A stretch of DNA of 35,682 bases from Georgenia satyanarayanai (GTDB taxonomy: Bacteria; Actinomycetota; Actinomycetes; Actinomycetales; Actinomycetaceae), in the NCBI RefSeq assembly GCF_023715365.1, contig NZ_JAMBNZ010000020.1, positions 1 through 35,682 of the forward strand, read 5' to 3'. Below the pieces are notes generated by a model. That model was not told the DNA's origin. It saw only the letters and a program-made list of their open reading frames with translations, and searched no databases. Shown here piece after piece: positions 13,006 through 35,682 of the stretch. The translations under genes and the position numbers were made by a program. Position 1 is the first letter of the stretch. Each line of letters begins with the position of its first letter.

Positions 13006-15262
13006 GCCACTCCCGGGCGGCCCGGAAGCCGCGCTCGGCGAAGCCCGCGCCGCCGGGGTAGGCGTCGTGGACGAAAACCGTGGGCACGAGCGTGTCCTGG
13101 TGGACGGCGGTCGACAGGCCACCGAGGTCCCACCGGTCGCAGGTGGCGACGATCGGCAACAGCCCGATGGACGCGTGCTCGGCGGCGTGAAGGGCGCCGG
13201 GCAGCACGTCGGCGCCCACTCCGACCTCCGCCAGCGCCTCCGCGCTCACCGACCACCACACCGCGCTCGTGCGCAGGACGCGCTCGGGCAGCTCGAGCGG
13301 GTAGCTGCCGACGATCTCCAGCCCAGGCAGCCGGCGCCGGTCGAAGCCGGTCACCTGGGAGGTCACCTCCACCGCGCCGCGGGACCACCTCACGGTGGCG
13401 CCGCCGGGGTGGGGCCACTCGGCGTGCTCCTGCTCCTCGATGATCCGCACGGTCGTCGCGCTGCGTGCCTTGGTGCGGTAGGACACCTCGGGCTCGGCGT
13501 GGACGAGGGCGACGTCGTCGGCGAGCTGGTCGACGACGAAGGTGCGGCCCTGGTGGACGTAGACGGCGCCCGGGTGGACCGTGCCGTCGGCGCGCGCACC
13601 GTCGACCGTGCCGAGCACCCGGCCCGTGCCGGCCTCGACGACCTGCACCGGCTGACCGTGACCACCGCGCAGGTCGGTGAGGGAGGAAGGCTGCTCGGGC
13701 CGGGAGAAGTTCCAGAACCAGCCGTTCGGGCGGCGGCGCAGGAACTCCTGCGTGGTGAGCAGCTGGAGGAGGGAGTCGTCGGGCAGTCCGAAGCGCGGCA
13801 GATCAGCCTCGGTGAGCGGGACCTCCGCGGCCGCTGCGCACAGGTGCGGGGCGAGGACGTAGGGGTTGGCGGGGTCGAAGGTCGTCACCTCCACGGCCTG
13901 GCCGAAGACCGCCTCGGGGTGGTGGACCAGGTAGGCGTCCAGCGGGTCCTCCGAGGCGACCAGCACCGCCAGGCCGTCACGCCCGGCGCGGCCGGAGCGG
14001 CCGGCCTGCTGCCACATCGACACGCGCGTGCCCGGCCAGCCGGTCATGACGACGGCGTCCAGCCCGGAGACGTCCACCCCCAGCTCGAGGGCGTTCGTCG
14101 TCGCGAGCGCGAGCAGGTCGCCCTCCCGCAGGGCCCGTTCCAGGGCGCGGCGCTCCTCGGGAAGGTACCCGCCGCGGTAGGCGGCCACGCGGCCGGAGAG
14201 CCCGGTGCCGGCGAGCTGGTGCTGGATCTGCTCGGCCACCGCCTCGGCCCCGTAACGGGAGCGGACGAAGGCGAGCGTGCGCGCGCCGGCCCGCACGAGG
14301 CGGGCGACAAGTGCGGACGCCTCGCTCGACGCACTGCGGCGGGGGCCGGCGGCGTCGAGCTCGGCCTGCTCCTCGGGCAGCACAACCCCCTCCGCGGGCC
14401 ACTGGCGGCCCTCCTTGGTGAAGCCGGGCTGCCACAGGACGATCGTGCGGGTCCCGCTGGGCGCCGTGTCCTCGACGACCGCGTGCACCTCGGCGGGGTC
14501 GACACCGATGAGGCGGGCACCGGTCGCGGCCGGGTCACCGGTCGTCGCGGAGGCGAGGACCACCGTCGGGTGGGCGCCGTAGTGCTCCGCCACGCGCAGC
14601 AGCCGGCGCAGCACGAGGGCCACGTGCGCGCCCAGGACCCCGCGGTAGGCGTGGCACTCGTCGACGACGACGAAGCGCAGCCCGCGCAGCAGCCGCTGCC
14701 AGCGCCGGTGGCGGGGCAGCATGGAGAAGTGGAGGAAGTCCGGGTTGCTCAGCACGATGTCGGCGTGGTCGCGGGCCCAGTCCCGCTCGGCGAGCGGGGT
14801 GTCACCGTCGCAGGTGGTGGCCCGTACGCCGCGCAGCGACGCCGCGTCGAGGAGCCGCTCGAGACCGGCGAGCTGGTCGGCGGCAAGGGCCTTCGTCGGT
14901 GAGAGGTACAGCGTGGTGGGCCGGCGCGCGTAGCCGGCGATGCGGCCGGAGCCCGGGCCGGCGGCCGCCTCGGCGCCCTCCCGCACGGCGCTGATCGCCG
15001 GCAGCCACGCCGCCAGCGACTTCCCCGAGCCGGTGGCCGTCGCGATGACGGTGTGCCGCCCCGACCACACGGACTCCGCCGCCTCGACCTGGTGCTCCCA
15101 GGGCGCCTCGACGCCCAGCCGCCGGTAGCCCGCGACGAGGTCGGTGTCCGCCCACGCGGGCCAGTCCCCCGTGCGCCCCGGGCGGGCGGGGATCCGCTCG
15201 ACGTGGAGGAGCCGGTCGTCGCCCTCGCCGAGCTGGTGCAGGAGGGGGAGGAGCTCGGTCAC
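12851..15262 (-). CDS. DEAD/DEAH-box helicase with C-terminal DUF1998 (MrfA/YprA-like)
   Basis: An 803-residue superfamily 2 helicase. Walker A is ATATGSGKS (about 74-82), the DExH motif is DECH (201-204), motif VI region is QQAGRSGRAGRDG, followed by a long C-terminal part ending in a cysteine cluster CGCADGCPSCVQSPKC (about 763-778) typical of DUF1998. The family includes Bacillus MrfA, a 3'-5' helicase for repair of mitomycin-type DNA damage, with a four-cysteine metal site. In actinobacteria it sits next to the Tad locus (Rv3649). The GTG at 15262 gives the normal N-terminus (VTELLPLLHQLG); the longer frame to 15565 adds unlike low-complexity sequence antisense to the hppA leader. Converges and overlaps with the upstream TadE-like frame. 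Confidence 0.9.
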   Translation of the reverse strand: MTELLPLLHQLGEGDDRLLHVERIPARPGRTGDWPAWADTDLVAGYRRLGVEAPWEHQVEAAESVWSGRHTVIATATGSGKSLAAWLPAISAVREGAEAAAGPGSGRIAGYARRPTTLYLSPTKALAADQLAGLERLLDAASLRGVRATTCDGDTPLAERDWARDHADIVLSNPDFLHFSMLPRHRRWQRLLRGLRFVVVDECHAYRGVLGAHVALVLRRLLRVAEHYGAHPTVVLASATTGDPAATGARLIGVDPAEVHAVVEDTAPSGTRTIVLWQPGFTKEGRQWPAEGVVLPEEQAELDAAGPRRSASSEASALVARLVRAGARTLAFVRSRYGAEAVAEQIQHQLAGTGLSGRVAAYRGGYLPEERRALERALREGDLLALATTNALELGVDVSGLDAVVMTGWPGTRVSMWQQAGRSGRAGRDGLAVLVASEDPLDAYLVHHPEAVFGQAVEVTTFDPANPYVLAPHLCAAAAEVPLTEADLPRFGLPDDSLLQLLTTQEFLRRRPNGWFWNFSRPEQPSSLTDLRGGHGQPVQVVEAGTGRVLGTVDGARADGTVHPGAVYVHQGRTFVVDQLADDVALVHAEPEVSYRTKARSATTVRIIEEQEHAEWPHPGGATVRWSRGAVEVTSQVTGFDRRRLPGLEIVGSYPLELPERVLRTSAVWWSVSAEALAEVGVGADVLPGALHAAEHASIGLLPIVATCDRWDLGGLSTAVHQDTLVPTVFVHDAYPGGAGFAERGFRAAREWLTATLGAVAGCGCADGCPSCVQSPKCGNGNSPLDKAAAVRVLRFLVAACPA

Positions 15263-29783: not shown

Positions 29784-29786
29784 AGT
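29781..29786 (+). promoter_or_regulatory. -10 box, leaderless start of the TAP hydrolase gene
   Basis: TAGAGT ends 7 nt before the GTG at 29794; its first three bases are the holB stop codon. Confidence 0.5.
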
Positions 29787-29793
29787 GGCGCCG

Positions 29794-31338
29794 GTGAGCC
29801 GGATCCTGCGCGCGAGCCTCGCCCTCGTCACCGTGACCGCCCTCGTCGCCTGCAGTGCGAGTGAGGACCCCGACGACGCCGACGGCGCCGCCGCCGAGGA
29901 GTCCCGCGGTCCCCGGACCGAGGAGCCGATGCCCGAGGTTCCCGCAGGGCTCGAGGACATCTACGGGCAGTCCCTCTCCTGGGAGGAGTGCGGCAACGGC
30001 TTCGACTGCACCGACGTCACCGTGCCCCTCGACTGGGAGGAGCCCGACGCGGAGTCGATCACCCTCGCCGTCAAGCGTCGCGCCGCTGGTGACGAGGAGC
30101 CGGTCGGCTCGCTGCTCATCAACCCCGGTGGCCCCGGCGGCTCCGGGGTCCAGCTCGTCGAGGCGGCCCCGCTCATGTTCTCCGCCGACCTCGTCGACGG
30201 CTACGACGTCGTCGGTTTCGACCCACGCGGCGTGGGCGCCTCCACCCCGGTGGACTGCGTGAGCGACGCCGAGCTCGACAAGATCCGCGCGGAGGACTTC
30301 GACACGAGCACCGAGGACGGGCTGGCCGCGTTCGCCGCGGCCGCCGACGAGCTCGCCGCGGCCTGCGAGAAGAACAGCGGGGACCTGCTCGCCCACGTCG
30401 ACACCATCAGTGCGGCCCGCGACCTGGACGTCCTGCGCCACGTGCTCGAGGAGCCCCGCCTCGACTACCTCGGCTACTCCTACGGCACCCACCTCGGCGC
30501 CGTGTACGCCGAGCTCTTCCCCGACAACGTCGGGCGGATGGTCCTCGACGGCGCGATGGACCCCTCGCTGGGCAGCGACGAGATCGTCCGGGGCCAGGCC
30601 GAGGGCTTCGAGCGGGCGATCCGCGCGTACGCCGAGGACTGCCTCGCCGGCGGCGGCTGCCCGCTCAGCGGGAACGTCGACACGGCCGTGGGGCAGGTCC
30701 AGGACCTCCTCGAGCTGGCGTCCCACACGCCGCTGGAGACGGGCACCGACCGCACGCTCACCGCCCCGCTCATGTTCTCCGGCATCATCATGCCGCTGTA
30801 CGACGACGCGTACTGGATGCTGCTCACCTCCGCCCTCGACGCCGCGATGAACCAGCAGGACGGCTCACAGCTGCTCTTCCTCGCCGACCTCGCCGCCGAG
30901 CGCGAGGAGGACGGGACCTACCTGACGAACTCCAACGAGGCGAACATCGCGATCAACTGCATCGACTACCCCGTCGAGGGCGGGATCGAGGAGTGGCGCG
31001 AGCAGGCCGCGGCGCTGGAGACGATCTCCCCGACCTTCGGACCGGCTCTCGCCTACGGTGACGTCACCTGCGCCGCGTGGCCGCACGAGCCGCGTGTCGG
31101 ACCGGCGGCGGTGACCGCGGCCGGCGCCGAGCCCATCGTCGTCATCGGCACGACCGGTGACCCGGCCACCCCGTACGCGTGGTCCGAGCAGCTTGCCGAG
31201 CAGCTGGAGTCCGGCGTGCTCGTCACCTACGAGGGCGAGGGGCACACGGCCTACGGCCGCGCCGGCGACTGCGTGACCGGCGCCGTCGACGGCTTCCTTC
31301 TCGAGGGCACCGTCCCCGAGGACGGCCTCGTCTGCTGA
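29794..31338 (+). CDS. Secreted alpha/beta hydrolase, TAP/SlpE-type peptidase lipoprotein
   Basis: 514 residues, exported and probably lipid-anchored: hydrophobic signal with lipobox LVAC (Cys20), then an acidic linker. The alpha/beta-hydrolase core has the oxyanion motif NPGGPGGSG (about 110-118), VVGFDPRGVGAS, the nucleophile elbow GYSYGT (Ser229), and near the end GTTGDPATPY (Asp) and GEGHTAYG (His), with the TAP C-terminal domain. This is the tripeptidyl aminopeptidase family (SlpD/SlpE/TAP of Streptomyces, CaeA of mycobacteria); substrate may be peptides or esters. GTG at 29794 is preferred from the TAGAGT box 7 nt upstream; an in-frame GTG at 29785 would add three residues. It lies downstream of holB as SCO3540 does in Streptomyces. 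Confidence 0.92.
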   Translation: MSRILRASLALVTVTALVACSASEDPDDADGAAAEESRGPRTEEPMPEVPAGLEDIYGQSLSWEECGNGFDCTDVTVPLDWEEPDAESITLAVKRRAAGDEEPVGSLLINPGGPGGSGVQLVEAAPLMFSADLVDGYDVVGFDPRGVGASTPVDCVSDAELDKIRAEDFDTSTEDGLAAFAAAADELAAACEKNSGDLLAHVDTISAARDLDVLRHVLEEPRLDYLGYSYGTHLGAVYAELFPDNVGRMVLDGAMDPSLGSDEIVRGQAEGFERAIRAYAEDCLAGGGCPLSGNVDTAVGQVQDLLELASHTPLETGTDRTLTAPLMFSGIIMPLYDDAYWMLLTSALDAAMNQQDGSQLLFLADLAAEREEDGTYLTNSNEANIAINCIDYPVEGGIEEWREQAAALETISPTFGPALAYGDVTCAAWPHEPRVGPAAVTAAGAEPIVVIGTTGDPATPYAWSEQLAEQLESGVLVTYEGEGHTAYGRAGDCVTGAVDGFLLEGTVPEDGLVC

Positions 31339-31369: not shown

Positions 31370-31395
31370 GGCCTGCGCTGCCCCGCGTGGGCCGC

Positions 31396-31468
31396 GCCGC
31401 CTTAGCTCAGTCGGCAGAGCGTCTCACTCGTAATGAGAAGGTCGTGGGTTCGATTCCCACAGGCGGCT
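31396..31468 (+). tRNA. tRNA-Thr (anticodon CGT)
   Basis: A full cloverleaf can be drawn. The 7-bp acceptor stem is 31396-31402 with 31461-31467, discriminator T at 31468. The D arm is GCTC/GAGC; the anticodon arm TCTCA/TGAGA encloses loop CTCGTAA with anticodon CGT at 31429-31431 (reads ACG); the T arm GTGGG/CCCAC encloses TTCGATT. The 3' CCA is not encoded (CCG follows). It marks the border between core genes and an A/T-richer accessory segment, and tRNA genes of this kind are common integration sites. Confidence 0.97.
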
Positions 31469-31477
31469 CCGACAGAA

Positions 31478-31514
31478 TCGGCGCTATCTCAATGAGAACT
31501 GGAGATGGCGCCGA
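31478..31514 (+). terminator. Strong hairpin directly after tRNA-Thr
   Basis: A 13-bp stem with one G-T wobble (31478-31490 with 31502-31514) and an 11-nt loop, starting 9 nt after the tRNA. Probably the tRNA terminator; no T-run beyond TTT at 31521-31523. Confidence 0.6.
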
Positions 31515-31530
31515 CCCCCGTTTCGGGCCA

Positions 31531-31551
31531 GGTAGGGCCATCGGTAGGGCC
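31531..31551. repeat. Direct repeat GGTAGGGCC, period 12
   Basis: Two exact 9-nt copies (31531-31539 and 31543-31551) separated by ATC. Close direct repeats beside a tRNA can be integrase arm-type sites, but this is only a possibility. Confidence 0.5.
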
Positions 31552-31773
31552 AAACGATCCTGGCGGCTGTCGCCAAGGGATAGGGCGCGGCCGTCACGTG
31601 TATAGCACCTTCGACGGTCCCTGGGTGTGTCACCGATGGACTCCTAGCGGACGGGAGCATGGTGGTGCCCATGGCGGGTCTCGATATGGACGCACCATTG
31701 CACCCTGGACGGCTTCGTGGGGCTGTAGTTGGCCAGGCTTGCAAGACTTCGCGCGCGATCTGCCACGGCGCCG

Positions 31774-34587
31774 CTACTGCGGTAGCGCGAAGTCGAGAGT
31801 ATCGGCAACGGGGCGACGTTCGCGTGCTCGCCAGAGGAGGGCGGTGATAGTGGCGCGAGCGGTCCAGTTTGTTGGGTTGATGGCGTCGATCGCCGTGACG
31901 ACCTCAAGCAACTGATCAGGATTGGCAACGACCTCGAGTGCACTGGCCGGGACGGACAGCCCTTCCGGGATGGCGAATACGCCGCTCTCGTCGGTCGTGG
32001 TCTTCACTCGACGTAGGTGGTCGCGAAAGGTCCGCGCTGGGCTGCTCTTCGGCCACGTCCGCGTAGCGTCTGGGAGCGCGTCGGCGAGAGTGACAGGGCG
32101 ACCCGCCTTGCTAGGCGGCACTAGACGAGCAGCGCCGGAACTCGACCACAGTTGGCGCGCCTGAGCGGCGAGCTCCCCCACTTGGTTCTTGCCGCGGAGT
32201 TCGGCGAGGACCAGGCGGGCGGCTTGTTGGTTCTCGGGTTGTCCAGTCGATGCGCTTTGGAGAGCTCGGACGATCAGCGTGCGGGTCGCCGCGTTGAGGT
32301 CGGGCTGGTCGGCGAGCACTTCTCCGAGTCGTGACGCTCCTAGGTTGACGCCGTGCAGTGCTTCGAGGGCGTGAGCGACGAGGAGACGCACGTGTTTGGG
32401 ATTGTTGGCCGCTACGCCGTCTTCGAGGATCGCTGTTGCTAGGCGGGGCCCGGTTGGGGCGAGGACGCTCAGTGTGTCGTCGGCGTCGATGTCCCGCATG
32501 CCTTGCAGCACGCCGTCGAAGAGGTGCGGCTGGTCGCGGTAGAGGGTCCCGACGGCGAGGAGCCACGTGTTGCGCCAGTGTGCGGAGTGGGCGATCGCGT
32601 TGAGGTTGGTTAGTGCGTTGGGGTCCGGACCGAACGTAAGGGCCTGGGCAGCCATGTACTCCTGGAGGCTGCGGAGATCGAAACCGACCTGATTCTTGCC
32701 GTTGGCTGCCAGGAGCACGAGACGGTCCCGTGCAGCGCGGGTCAGGTTCGTGACGAGTCTGTCCAGTTCCGGACCGAAGTGTTCCTGATCGACCAGTCGC
32801 TGTCGGATCACCTGGTGCAGTTCCTCGGCTGGCATGAGGGACTCAGACTCGAAGTCTGTCTCGGCGCGCTTCTGGAGGGTCAGGGCGACCGTGCGGTGGA
32901 TCGCGTCGATGTCGAGGCGGTGGCTAGCCAGCACGTCAGACAGGAAGTTCTTCTTCTCGACCTCGCGATCGTAGATCACGTCGTAGTAGGCGGCGAATAG
33001 TGCTGCCCGGTCCTGCGGGGGTTTGCGGCGCTTCTCCAGAAGCAGCGACAGAATCATGACCTGCAGCGGTGTACGCATCAGCCGGCTGGTCACCTCGTTG
33101 TCGACGGCGGCGGTGATGCGCTCGATAACCTCACCCTTGGATGGGTCGGTGCCCATGCGGACGTTGGTCAGCCGTGTCGCGTAGGCGACCGCATCCTTTG
33201 CCGAGAGGTTGGCGAGGTGAATCTGCTGGAGGGATGGCGGCAGTTCGTTCGCGTATCCCTGTGGCCGCGTCGTGACCACCAGGACGAGATCTGCGTCGAG
33301 GGTCGCAGCGGTCTGGAGAAGATTGGTGACGGCCTGGGCAACAAGATCACGGGCGTGTGCGGCCGCGACCTCGTCGTATCCGTCGAGCACTAGCAGCCAA
33401 GGCCACGCCGCGAGCCAGTCGCGGGTGTTCTTGGCGGTGAACGCGGCACCGGTGGCGGCGTTAATCTTCATCGCGATGTACTCGACGAGCGGCGTATCGG
33501 GGCCTGCGGCGGTCGCGTACTCAGACAGGTCCACGCGGAACGGCCAGCGCCTGACAGTTGTGGAGGGCAGGCCTATCTCGGTAGCTCGAGTCAGGCTCGC
33601 TCCGACGACGCGGCGGACATCCTCGGACAGGGCCGGTCGGTCCTGCAGCAGTGCGGAACGATAGGTCTGCACGAGGATACGGCCGAGAGTTGTCTTGCCC
33701 TGTCCAGGCCCGCCCATGAGCAACACGTGCGGGGATGCGCCACCGGTGACCGATGGACGTTGGTTGCGGTTGCCCCTGGTGATCAGGTGCCGAAGCACAC
33801 GGATGCGCGAGATCGGGTCGGACTCAGACTCCCCGTGTGCCGGCAGGTCGATCGCGACACCGGCGAGATCGATCCGGTCGTTCGCAAGGTGGCCGGCCTC
33901 CCCAAGCGCGAGCTTGCCGCGGTGGAGGAGCTCGGCGCGTGCGTGCTCCTCAAGCAGCGGGACAGCGTCGGCCAGCGCCACAGTTGGGTCCGTCATCGTG
34001 CCGCCAGCCAGGGCGGCGAGGACGTCGCCCACCGTCAGAAGCCCGTTGAAAGTCATGCGGACGTCTGCGTATGCGTCGAGCAACCGCTCCACCTTGGAGC
34101 GATCCCAGACGGCGCAGTCTCTAATCGGCCATTGGTTGGCCGGGTCCTTGGCGTGGTCGCGGATGAGTCGCTCCACTTCGTCGATCCCCCCACCGATCTG
34201 GCCTGAGAGGGCGACGTTGGTGATGACGACGTAGTAGTCGGGTCTCTGCCCTTTGCGTTTCAGTTCCACCTTTCCGTTCCGGGTTACCGTGTCGCTCCAC
34301 TTAGCGAGTTCGCGCCGAACCTGAGCGAGTAGCCAGGTCTTGCTTGCCTGGGTGTTCAGGGGCCTCTCGTGGTGCTTGGCCTGAAAAACGTGGTACCCGT
34401 CCCAGTGGTCGTGCCCGACGGGGCGCTCCGGCGACGTCGGTCCCGAAGGGCCGTCGTAGGTGGCGTCGCGGCCGTCATCCTTCCCAGTGCCGAGAACCTT
34501 CACCGTGGGCCCATAGGAGCGAAGGATGAGGGCCTGCGCCAGGCGCTCAAACTCGTGTGGTCCTAGATTCTCAAGGCTGTAGGGCAC
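31774..34587 (-). CDS. NACHT-domain NTPase with N-terminal PD-(D/E)XK (Mrr-like) nuclease domain; candidate anti-phage STAND protein
   Basis: 937 residues. The N-terminal about 175 residues resemble a restriction-endonuclease fold: FERLAQALIL (Glu14), GKDDGRDATYDG (Asp41) and YHVFQAKHH (Gln69-x-Lys71) fit E...D...QxK of Mrr-type nucleases. A NACHT-type NTPase follows: Walker A GGPGQGKTT (292-300), Walker B LLVLDGYDEVAA (398-409), sensor VVTTRPQGY (437-445). The C-terminal about 450 residues are helical, Leu/Ala-rich and without a recognised repeat; in STAND proteins this part senses the trigger. Known relatives (bacterial NACHT and Avs proteins) detect phage proteins and activate a nuclease to stop infection. 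GTG start at 34587, with GGGAGGG somewhat far upstream. Codon third positions are clearly less GC-rich than in the core, suggesting acquisition. A 6-bp hairpin (31772-31787) overlaps the stop. Confidence 0.85.
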   Translation of the reverse strand: MPYSLENLGPHEFERLAQALILRSYGPTVKVLGTGKDDGRDATYDGPSGPTSPERPVGHDHWDGYHVFQAKHHERPLNTQASKTWLLAQVRRELAKWSDTVTRNGKVELKRKGQRPDYYVVITNVALSGQIGGGIDEVERLIRDHAKDPANQWPIRDCAVWDRSKVERLLDAYADVRMTFNGLLTVGDVLAALAGGTMTDPTVALADAVPLLEEHARAELLHRGKLALGEAGHLANDRIDLAGVAIDLPAHGESESDPISRIRVLRHLITRGNRNQRPSVTGGASPHVLLMGGPGQGKTTLGRILVQTYRSALLQDRPALSEDVRRVVGASLTRATEIGLPSTTVRRWPFRVDLSEYATAAGPDTPLVEYIAMKINAATGAAFTAKNTRDWLAAWPWLLVLDGYDEVAAAHARDLVAQAVTNLLQTAATLDADLVLVVTTRPQGYANELPPSLQQIHLANLSAKDAVAYATRLTNVRMGTDPSKGEVIERITAAVDNEVTSRLMRTPLQVMILSLLLEKRRKPPQDRAALFAAYYDVIYDREVEKKNFLSDVLASHRLDIDAIHRTVALTLQKRAETDFESESLMPAEELHQVIRQRLVDQEHFGPELDRLVTNLTRAARDRLVLLAANGKNQVGFDLRSLQEYMAAQALTFGPDPNALTNLNAIAHSAHWRNTWLLAVGTLYRDQPHLFDGVLQGMRDIDADDTLSVLAPTGPRLATAILEDGVAANNPKHVRLLVAHALEALHGVNLGASRLGEVLADQPDLNAATRTLIVRALQSASTGQPENQQAARLVLAELRGKNQVGELAAQARQLWSSSGAARLVPPSKAGRPVTLADALPDATRTWPKSSPARTFRDHLRRVKTTTDESGVFAIPEGLSVPASALEVVANPDQLLEVVTAIDAINPTNWTARATITALLWRARERRPVADTLDFALPQ

Positions 34588-34730
34588 GAGTCACATACTG
34601 CCCTCCCGACGCTCGATCAGGCTCATAACGCACTGGAGAGCATGCGGTCACGGCGTCGCTGATGCGCGTCGTCGCAGGTCAGCGGGCCTATCTATACGTC
34701 ACCAGATGGCTCAACGGAGGTCCCAGGGTC

Positions 34731-34736
34731 TACCTT
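34731..34736 (+). promoter_or_regulatory. Possible -10 box of the divergent accessory gene
   Basis: TACCTT ends 5 nt before the ATG at 34742, one base closer than the other leaderless starts. A second candidate, TATACG at 34693-34698, ends 7 nt before an in-frame ATG at 34706, so the start is not settled. Confidence 0.35.
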
Positions 34737-34741
34737 GCAGC

Positions 34742-35356
34742 ATGGCCATCGAGGACGGGATCGACCTGCTCGATCAACAGGCTGAGGCTACGTTCCCAGG
34801 CTGGCGGCCGATGCTGCGCGGCTTGCGAATGGCACTGGCTGAGCCGCCCGACACCTTGGTCTGGGATCCCCTCTCCGCACGTCCGCGCTTCGCGCGACGG
34901 ATCGAGAAGATGTACCTCCTCGAACTCGCCGGAGAGGTGCTCAGCACGACATGTGAACGGTGCGGCGCTCTGGGGTCGCGCATGGCCGTGGGAGACGCGC
35001 TTGCCATCCGCTGCGCCGCGCACTGCGACAGGCATCCGGATCTCCCGGGCGTCTGGGAGGCGCTCGAGGGCGAGGAATGGGTCATCACCCGAGAAGGCGA
35101 CGTGGTCCGAGTCGCGGATCTGAGTGCCACTGACCGGCGCGAACTCGCGGAGTGGCTCGTCGAGTCAGCCCACGATCTCGCGACAGAAGCGCTAGGCCGA
35201 GCGCTGGTCGCGGCCCACCACGCTGGGACGGCACGAGATGTCAAGGCCGCGCTGCGGGCGATTCCGTCCCACGATCCCGACAGGGCACGGAAGCACGTGG
35301 AGCGCTCCCTGCTCTACCAGGCCCTCACCCAGACATCGGAAGAGGACGCATCGTGA
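34742..35356 (+). CDS. Uncharacterised accessory protein with CxxC...CxxxC cluster
   Basis: 204 residues, family not recognised. A central CERCGALG followed about 18 residues later by CAAHC could bind zinc. The N-terminus is helical (MAIEDGIDLLDQQAEATFPG), with WRPMLRGLRMAL and a proline-rich turn; after the cysteine cluster come a short beta-like stretch (EEWVITREGDVVRVADLS) and a long helical C-terminal part. The start could be 34742 or 34706 (12 more residues). It diverges from the nuclease-NACHT gene across about 154 nt and its stop overlaps the next start (GTGA). Base composition is like that of the NACHT gene rather than the core. It could be part of the same acquired module or an unrelated passenger. 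Confidence 0.7.
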   Translation: MAIEDGIDLLDQQAEATFPGWRPMLRGLRMALAEPPDTLVWDPLSARPRFARRIEKMYLLELAGEVLSTTCERCGALGSRMAVGDALAIRCAAHCDRHPDLPGVWEALEGEEWVITREGDVVRVADLSATDRRELAEWLVESAHDLATEALGRALVAAHHAGTARDVKAALRAIPSHDPDRARKHVERSLLYQALTQTSEEDAS

Positions 35357-35682
35357 CCGACGCCGAAGATCTCATCGGCAGACCGGGGGAGCTTCATATT
35401 GGCATCTTCGCTCAGGACCAAGTGTGGGTGGACGTCCGCGGCGTTCCGCACGCTCTGGAGGAGATGACCCTGCAGTACCGGGCGAACGTGATCCGCCATT
35501 TGCGTGAACACGCTGCTCAGTACCGGAGGGCCGTGGCGTCGGGCGATGCCATCGACGGTCAAGCCCTGGGGAGTGGTGTATCGGTCCTCGAGATCGGGGG
35601 GTTGGATCAGGCGCTGATGGCGCCGATGGGTTCGGTGGTGGTCACCTCCTCGGGGCTGGTCTCGGCGACAAGGGCCAGTCGA
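35353..35682 (+). CDS. Small accessory protein, cut by the window edge
   Basis: GTG at 35353 overlaps the previous stop. The frame stays open to the edge (110 codons). The first about 65 residues look like a real domain: GELHIGIFAQDQVWVDVRGV, then HALEEMTLQYRANVIRHLRE, a pattern (aromatic/Asp-Gly..., E-M-x-x-x-Y-R-x-N-V-x-x-x-L) that reminds me of short proteins carried by actinobacterial phages and integrative elements; this is from memory and weak. The last about 35 codons look less convincing and may be non-native sequence, since the other strand carries a plausible C-terminus ending at 35607. Partial at 3' end. Confidence 0.55.
   Translation, partial: MTDAEDLIGRPGELHIGIFAQDQVWVDVRGVPHALEEMTLQYRANVIRHLREHAAQYRRAVASGDAIDGQALGSGVSVLEIGGLDQALMAPMGSVVVTSSGLVSATRASR

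Follow-up and report, generated by a model that had tools for sequence, protein, structure and literature searches.

Bacterial defence proteins that combine a nuclease with a NACHT module have already been described. bNACHT25 and bNACHT32 carry N-terminal PD-(D/E)XK nucleases, and the D48A substitution abolishes both defence and the DNA loss triggered by infection (PMC12169576). STAND proteins with an N-terminal Mrr_cat nuclease have been reported from a P4-like satellite hotspot (Rousset et al. 2022, PMC9122126), TIR and Sir2 effectors from bacterial NACHT proteins (PMC10952713), Mrr-like effectors from related conflict systems (PMC7159879), and further PD-(D/E)XK and NACHT systems from DefensePredictor (PMC13092281). 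Here we analysed a contig of 35,682 nucleotides from Georgenia satyanarayanai (NZ_JAMBNZ010000020.1, assembly GCF_023715365.1), whose full length we call the window. Its minus strand carries, at 31774..34587, a gene with a GTG start and 937 codons for amino acids that joins a nuclease to a NACHT core close to a tRNA-Thr gene. We consider it likely that this gene encodes a single-protein, NLR-type defence switch with an Mrr-like nuclease, carried as cargo of an element integrated at tRNA-Thr.

The window protein has in common with bNACHT25 and bNACHT32 (clade 6) the arrangement of an N-terminal PD-(D/E)XK nuclease and a central NACHT within one protein. Those two proteins end in an NCH1 domain, whereas Pfam lists none for the window protein at E ≤ 1, the presence of NCH1 in that library being unconfirmed. 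The sensor of Avs4 is a long TPR-type C-terminal domain; no such sensor is found here, where the gene ends about 130 residues past the NLR core. An Mrr-like nuclease stands at the N-terminus of both Avs4 (PDB 8dgf) and the window protein, although the Avs4 chains, solved bound to a phage portal, are 1,534-1,541 residues long. The STAND-Mrr_cat proteins of the P4 hotspot, compared by description only, have the same type of effector but are reported to carry C-terminal repeats. Animal NLRs (NLRC4, NLRP3 and NOD2) show the same NACHT-HD1-WHD-HD2 arrangement as residues 203-808 of the window protein; in contrast to them, a nuclease replaces the CARD or PYD, no LRR family is detected (Pfam, E ≤ 1), and identity is about 14%.

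An earlier note, made from the DNA letters alone, had proposed a new anti-phage system. We rejected the idea of a categorically new system because PD-(D/E)XK-NACHT defence (bNACHT25/32) and STAND-Mrr_cat proteins of the same architecture are already published (PMC12169576, PMC9122126). Our literature search found no title on this actinobacterial nuclease-NACHT family, which is not proof of absence.

Results

The gene was read from the open reading frame (ORF) call, Pfam and an alignment of seven rows (A1), from which the minus-strand loci L007 and L009 and the partial or distant sequences L010, L011, L025 and L026 were dropped. The other six rows are 24-36% identical to the window protein. Since homologues share the same start position, the GTG start is supported, and a chance ORF is excluded because homologues occur in several phyla. 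A second alignment (A2) comprises ten rows, after dropping L051 and L053 (broken reading frame) and L040-L049 and L054, whose matches are confined to a portion of the NACHT region or to the P-loop.

Pfam, secondary structure and model comparison place a NACHT-HD1-WHD-HD2 NLR core at residues 203-808 (32164..33981, minus strand). The Pfam NACHT model matches the centre of the protein above its cut-off (E 1.5e-6, 28.6 versus 26.7 bits), and the modelled residues 203-808 align with the NLR core fold, in agreement with the NACHT/STAND core first proposed. The motifs pointed out in the earlier note were likewise confirmed: Walker A (GGPGQGKTT) at residues 292-300, Walker B (LDGYDEV) at 401-407 and TTRPQGY at 439-445, with G292, G295, G297, K298, T300, D402, G403, D405, E406, T439 and R441 invariant in both A1 and A2. 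Other searches were less specific. The NCBIfam scan gave nothing near its cut-offs, and among PHROGs a family of unknown function (phrog_18297) matches residues 369-673, along with two weak clamp-loader P-loop matches. The window protein alone found no solved structure by sequence at E ≤ 1; with a profile of the full protein, P-loop proteins rank first and NLRC4 appears at 0.0025. The single BFVD match at E ≤ 0.001 is a siphovirus protein named after NLRC4. No Avs entry is among the best 50 matches listed by VIA for the whole model, which does not exclude a relationship to Avs.

Behind the core lies a short, variable and mostly helical tail (residues 809-937; 31777..32163, minus strand), delimited by pairwise identity and secondary structure, which is a candidate sensor. 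Mean pairwise identity falls from 0.36-0.37 at residues 601-720 to 0.14-0.19 at 801-937. The earlier note had counted about 450 C-terminal residues without a known repeat; with the NLR core extending to about residue 808, only some 130 lie outside it. The suggestion that TPR, LRR and WD repeats are missing held up, as Pfam lists no repeat family at E ≤ 1. A nuclease (1-190), a NACHT core (203-808) and a variable tail (809-937) are thus all present, the tail being the putative sensor of a tripartite layout.

The N-terminal domain (residues 1-190; 34018..34587, minus strand), defined by an alignment of 21 N-terminal domains (A3) and by model comparison, is an Mrr-like PD-(D/E)XK nuclease. A3 omits L036 and L037 (N-terminus missing), L077 (insertion sequence) and L085 (N-terminus unmatched; without annotation). 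The structure prediction shows the PD-(D/E)XK core fold foreseen in the earlier note, with acidic residues and a (Q/E)xK motif in position: residue 14 sits in helix 1, and a strand ends in Q69-x-K71. The profile search proposed as a check fell short here, Mrr_cat staying below its own Pfam cut-off (E 0.0038, 17.8 versus 21 bits) while NACHT passed. Of the proposed catalytic residues, Q69 and K71 are invariant across the 21 domains, as are D37 and R40, but the other two vary: by eye, position 14 is E in 15 of 21 and Q in six, and position 41 is D in nine and E in 12. Q14 was found only with D41, and E41 only with E14, and the active site thus appears, in this alignment, to come in linked forms.

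By sequence, a profile of the N-terminal domain found no solved structure at E ≤ 1. PADLOC matches to this domain are weak in the window protein, with Aga_REase-TIR-PNTD1-PNTD2 at residues 1-48 (E 1.1e-5) and PDC-S73 at residues 2-44 (E 4.2e-4), and the rest of the protein is unmatched by either; the same matches are longer in relatives (residues 3-170 in L030 and 2-187 in L082). PDC-S73 is listed for six of the ten A2 members and Aga_REase for four; in L052 the PDC-S73 match lies at 286-309 instead of the N-terminus. These matches, weak here and longer in relatives, raise the possibility that Argonaute-associated and candidate single-gene defence proteins have this nuclease in common with the window protein.

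The nuclease also occurs with other switches. Its profile was found at E ≤ 1e-6 in 20 of 394 genomes of the class (own genome included). Of 20 loci checked by motif, own locus included, 15 carry the nuclease motif, and eight of these 15 also have the NACHT form of Walker B. Ten proteins, namely nine class loci and an Escherichia coli relative, were scanned further; as the choice took in proteins lacking the NACHT motif, the counts are not rates: nSTAND1 was present in four (E 1.7e-115 to 4.3e-120) and the NACHT model in three at E ≤ 0.01. In L099 (67-2070, minus strand), L100, L103 and L104, from other genomes of the class, the same Mrr-like nuclease is fused to an nSTAND1 NTPase. Conversely, Arthrobacter plasmid pAL1 encodes a related NACHT (28% identity over residues 278-730) located after an HNH domain; in this protein HNH_2 passes its Pfam cut-off but NACHT does not reach its own. 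That one nuclease is joined to NACHT in some proteins and to nSTAND1 in others is evidence that effectors and switches combine in a modular way.

These data bear on whether the protein could be a modification-dependent restriction enzyme (type IV, Mrr/McrBC-like), in which the ATPase would merely power or gate the cutting of foreign methylated DNA. The modelled N-terminal fold lies close to those of AspBHI and MspJI, which are modification-dependent, and Mrr_cat matches weakly. However, Pfam lists no modification-reading domain, the ATPase is NLR-like with HD1-WHD-HD2 rather than of the McrB type, and a nuclease held in common with nSTAND1 proteins suits a switch. We therefore regard such an enzyme as highly improbable and favour the NLR-type switch.

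The surroundings of the gene identify its carrier. The tRNA-Thr gene (anticodon CGT; 31396..31470, plus strand; ARAGORN) is the attachment gene, and DNA identity to congeners G001-G003 (91-93%) ends at its last base, 31470; the G004 match (82%) reaches 31475, and that of G005 stops earlier, near the end of the G005 contig. The last 48 bases of the tRNA gene form the attL core (31423..31470, plus strand), with an attR copy at G000:C13:111305-111352 that is identical at 48 of 48 positions, without extension on either side. From this copy onward, C13 runs collinear with those congeners (82-95%). Beside attR, close to a contig end, a tyrosine integrase is represented by its N-terminal part (L070:7552-8424; phrog_1, E 4.2e-36; Pfam Phage_int_SAM_3). 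Two direct copies of GGTRGGGCCA stand at 31531..31552 (plus strand) and two more just inside attR (L070:7445-7467). The motif occurs three times in the window (0.28 expected), once outside the element at 13408, and twice in L070 (0.02 expected), and the pairs inside both element ends are probably arm-type sites of the integrase. GC content (guanine plus cytosine) is 65.3% over 31471-35556 and 65.2% in the nuclease-NACHT gene, against 73.8% for 1-31470, and third-position GC is 0.78 in the gene versus 0.96 in its chromosomal neighbour (29785-31338). Acquisition at the tRNA border, as suggested beforehand, agrees with the end of congener similarity, the 48-bp repeat and the low GC. Judged from this sequence context, a tyrosine-integrase element that has integrated at tRNA-Thr carries the nuclease-NACHT gene as cargo.

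Inside the element, an orphan ORF of 216 amino acids (34706..35356, plus strand) diverges from the nuclease-NACHT gene; none of the Pfam, PADLOC and PHROG families matches it at E ≤ 1, and it has no match in the plasmid and phage collections and relatives in none of 393 other genomes of the class. For want of relatives in any of these sets, it was rejected as a partner of the nuclease-NACHT protein. A further ORF begins at 35353..35556 (plus strand), possibly with a GTG at 35353 that overlaps the stop codon before it, and enters the repeated contig end. The multi-copy repeat there (35557..35681), which recurs at either end of C109 as well as in C115 and C101, is perhaps an insertion-sequence end. 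The window contig and C13 both terminate in multi-copy repeats, where the middle of the element is broken. DNA from 34588 to 35682 has no match in the five congeners, and a repeat scan of 31380-35682 found short, mostly two-copy families only.

Homologues are spread across distant hosts, including Actinomycetota, an uncultured member of the Dehalococcoidia, Azonexus, Bradyrhizobium, Variovorax, Klebsiella and Priestia. Of 72,556 plasmid records, 26 contain a match, which in eight of them covers at least 80% of the protein in one place; none of 50,697 phage records contains one. Among the 20 plasmid matches listed from these 26 records, H1-H14, H18 and H19 were fetched, without H15, H16, H17 and H20. 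In addition, at least 17 loci were confirmed in genome contigs, at least seven of them matching most of the protein or starting at a contig end, and five in IMG/VR viral contigs. The best local matches mostly span residue 3 to about 740-810, and the final 130-200 residues are little conserved. In a plasmid of Rhodococcus qingshengii (L077:7992-12132) an IS3 family transposase gene interrupts the homologue, and in one of Rhodococcus sp. USK13 (L031:7995-18487) the gene apparently occurs twice with mirrored downstream neighbours.

In close relatives of the host, by comparison, the gene was not found at full length: a full-length relative is present in none of the five congeners (one 57% complete) and none of 53 further relatives, and in four of these 58 genomes the match is limited to about 60-70 residues surrounding the P-loop. 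Some STAND NTPases are regulators of transcription, and the protein could in principle have been domesticated by the host as a STAND regulator of the housekeeping or transcription type. This absence, the location on an integrated element of atypical composition, and a conserved nuclease domain in place of any known DNA-binding regulator domain make that role extremely improbable, and leave the defence switch as the preferred reading.

The setting of relatives supports a defence role in part. With the Klebsiella relative as query, a match was found in three of 5,426 E. coli genomes (64.8% DNA identity, 60% of the query). All three E. coli proteins adjoin the replication endonuclease of a P2-like prophage; on the other side lies a portal gene in two records (incomplete in NZ_CP028733.1, where the relative occupies 1819520-1823512, and full in NZ_LR782232.1), while the third record breaks off at this point. 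The window protein and the E. coli relative are 24% identical over 699 residues (E 6e-50). This gpA-gpQ interval of P2 is an anti-phage hotspot (Rousset et al. 2022, PMC9122126). Neither the E. coli nor the Klebsiella relatives drew a PADLOC match at E ≤ 0.01.

Among 13 annotated plasmid regions, with flanks of 8-10 kb or up to the record end, five have a neighbour whose name we judged defence-type, a count without a control rate: CRISPR RAMP and Abi family genes in L031, a type I methylase subunit in L079, a type ISP enzyme in L083, a Lit family gene in L084 and HEPN in L077. At seven genome or viral-contig loci, 56 of 79 neighbour ORFs, pooled across loci, were scanned. PADLOC at 1e-5 returned TnsB, CSD_V, capH, two RmrA models and HTH_VI, and terminase and minor tail genes are among the 25 of 48 Pfam families shown; no rich defence island was seen in these samples. 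The defence context predicted for homologues is thus borne out by the E. coli relatives in the P2 hotspot, but not by the seven sampled loci.

The same switch might mainly exclude rival plasmids and integrative elements in the service of its carrier, rather than phages. The preponderance of plasmid over phage records in the two collections and the status of the window gene as element cargo point in this direction. Nonetheless, the E. coli relatives lie in a prophage hotspot where anti-phage genes are known to occur, viral contigs in IMG/VR carry relatives too, and anti-plasmid and anti-phage roles are not exclusive. We regard a mainly anti-element function as unlikely, and continue with a switch that responds to infection.

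Discussion

By analogy with bNACHT25/32, Avs4 and animal NLRs, we propose how such a switch would operate. At rest, the NACHT-HD1-WHD-HD2 core is probably closed and ADP-bound. A signal derived from the invader or from host stress, detected through HD2 and the variable C-terminal tail, would open the core, and nucleotide exchange would then lead to oligomerization. The oligomer would gather the Mrr-like nucleases, and the resulting DNA cutting would halt phage or plasmid replication, probably killing the cell. Our best reading is accordingly a predicted NLR-type abortive-infection nuclease on an integrative element, with a well-supported architecture of a kind already known.

More tentatively, the protein may represent a compact, repeat-less branch of bacterial NLRs that has actinobacterial plasmids and integrative elements as its main carriers and whose Mrr-like nuclease has been passed between NACHT and nSTAND1 proteins. 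Sensing in this branch would depend on HD2 and a fast-changing tail of about 130 residues, or on a host chaperone, and not on a repeat array; we hold this proposal to be possible, with the balance somewhat against it.

In summary, the bacterial NLR repertoire of actinobacteria gains a compact nuclease-NLR whose relatives extend to P2-like prophages of E. coli. Because little follows its NLR core, the window protein would be a simple model for infection sensing by a repeat-less NLR.
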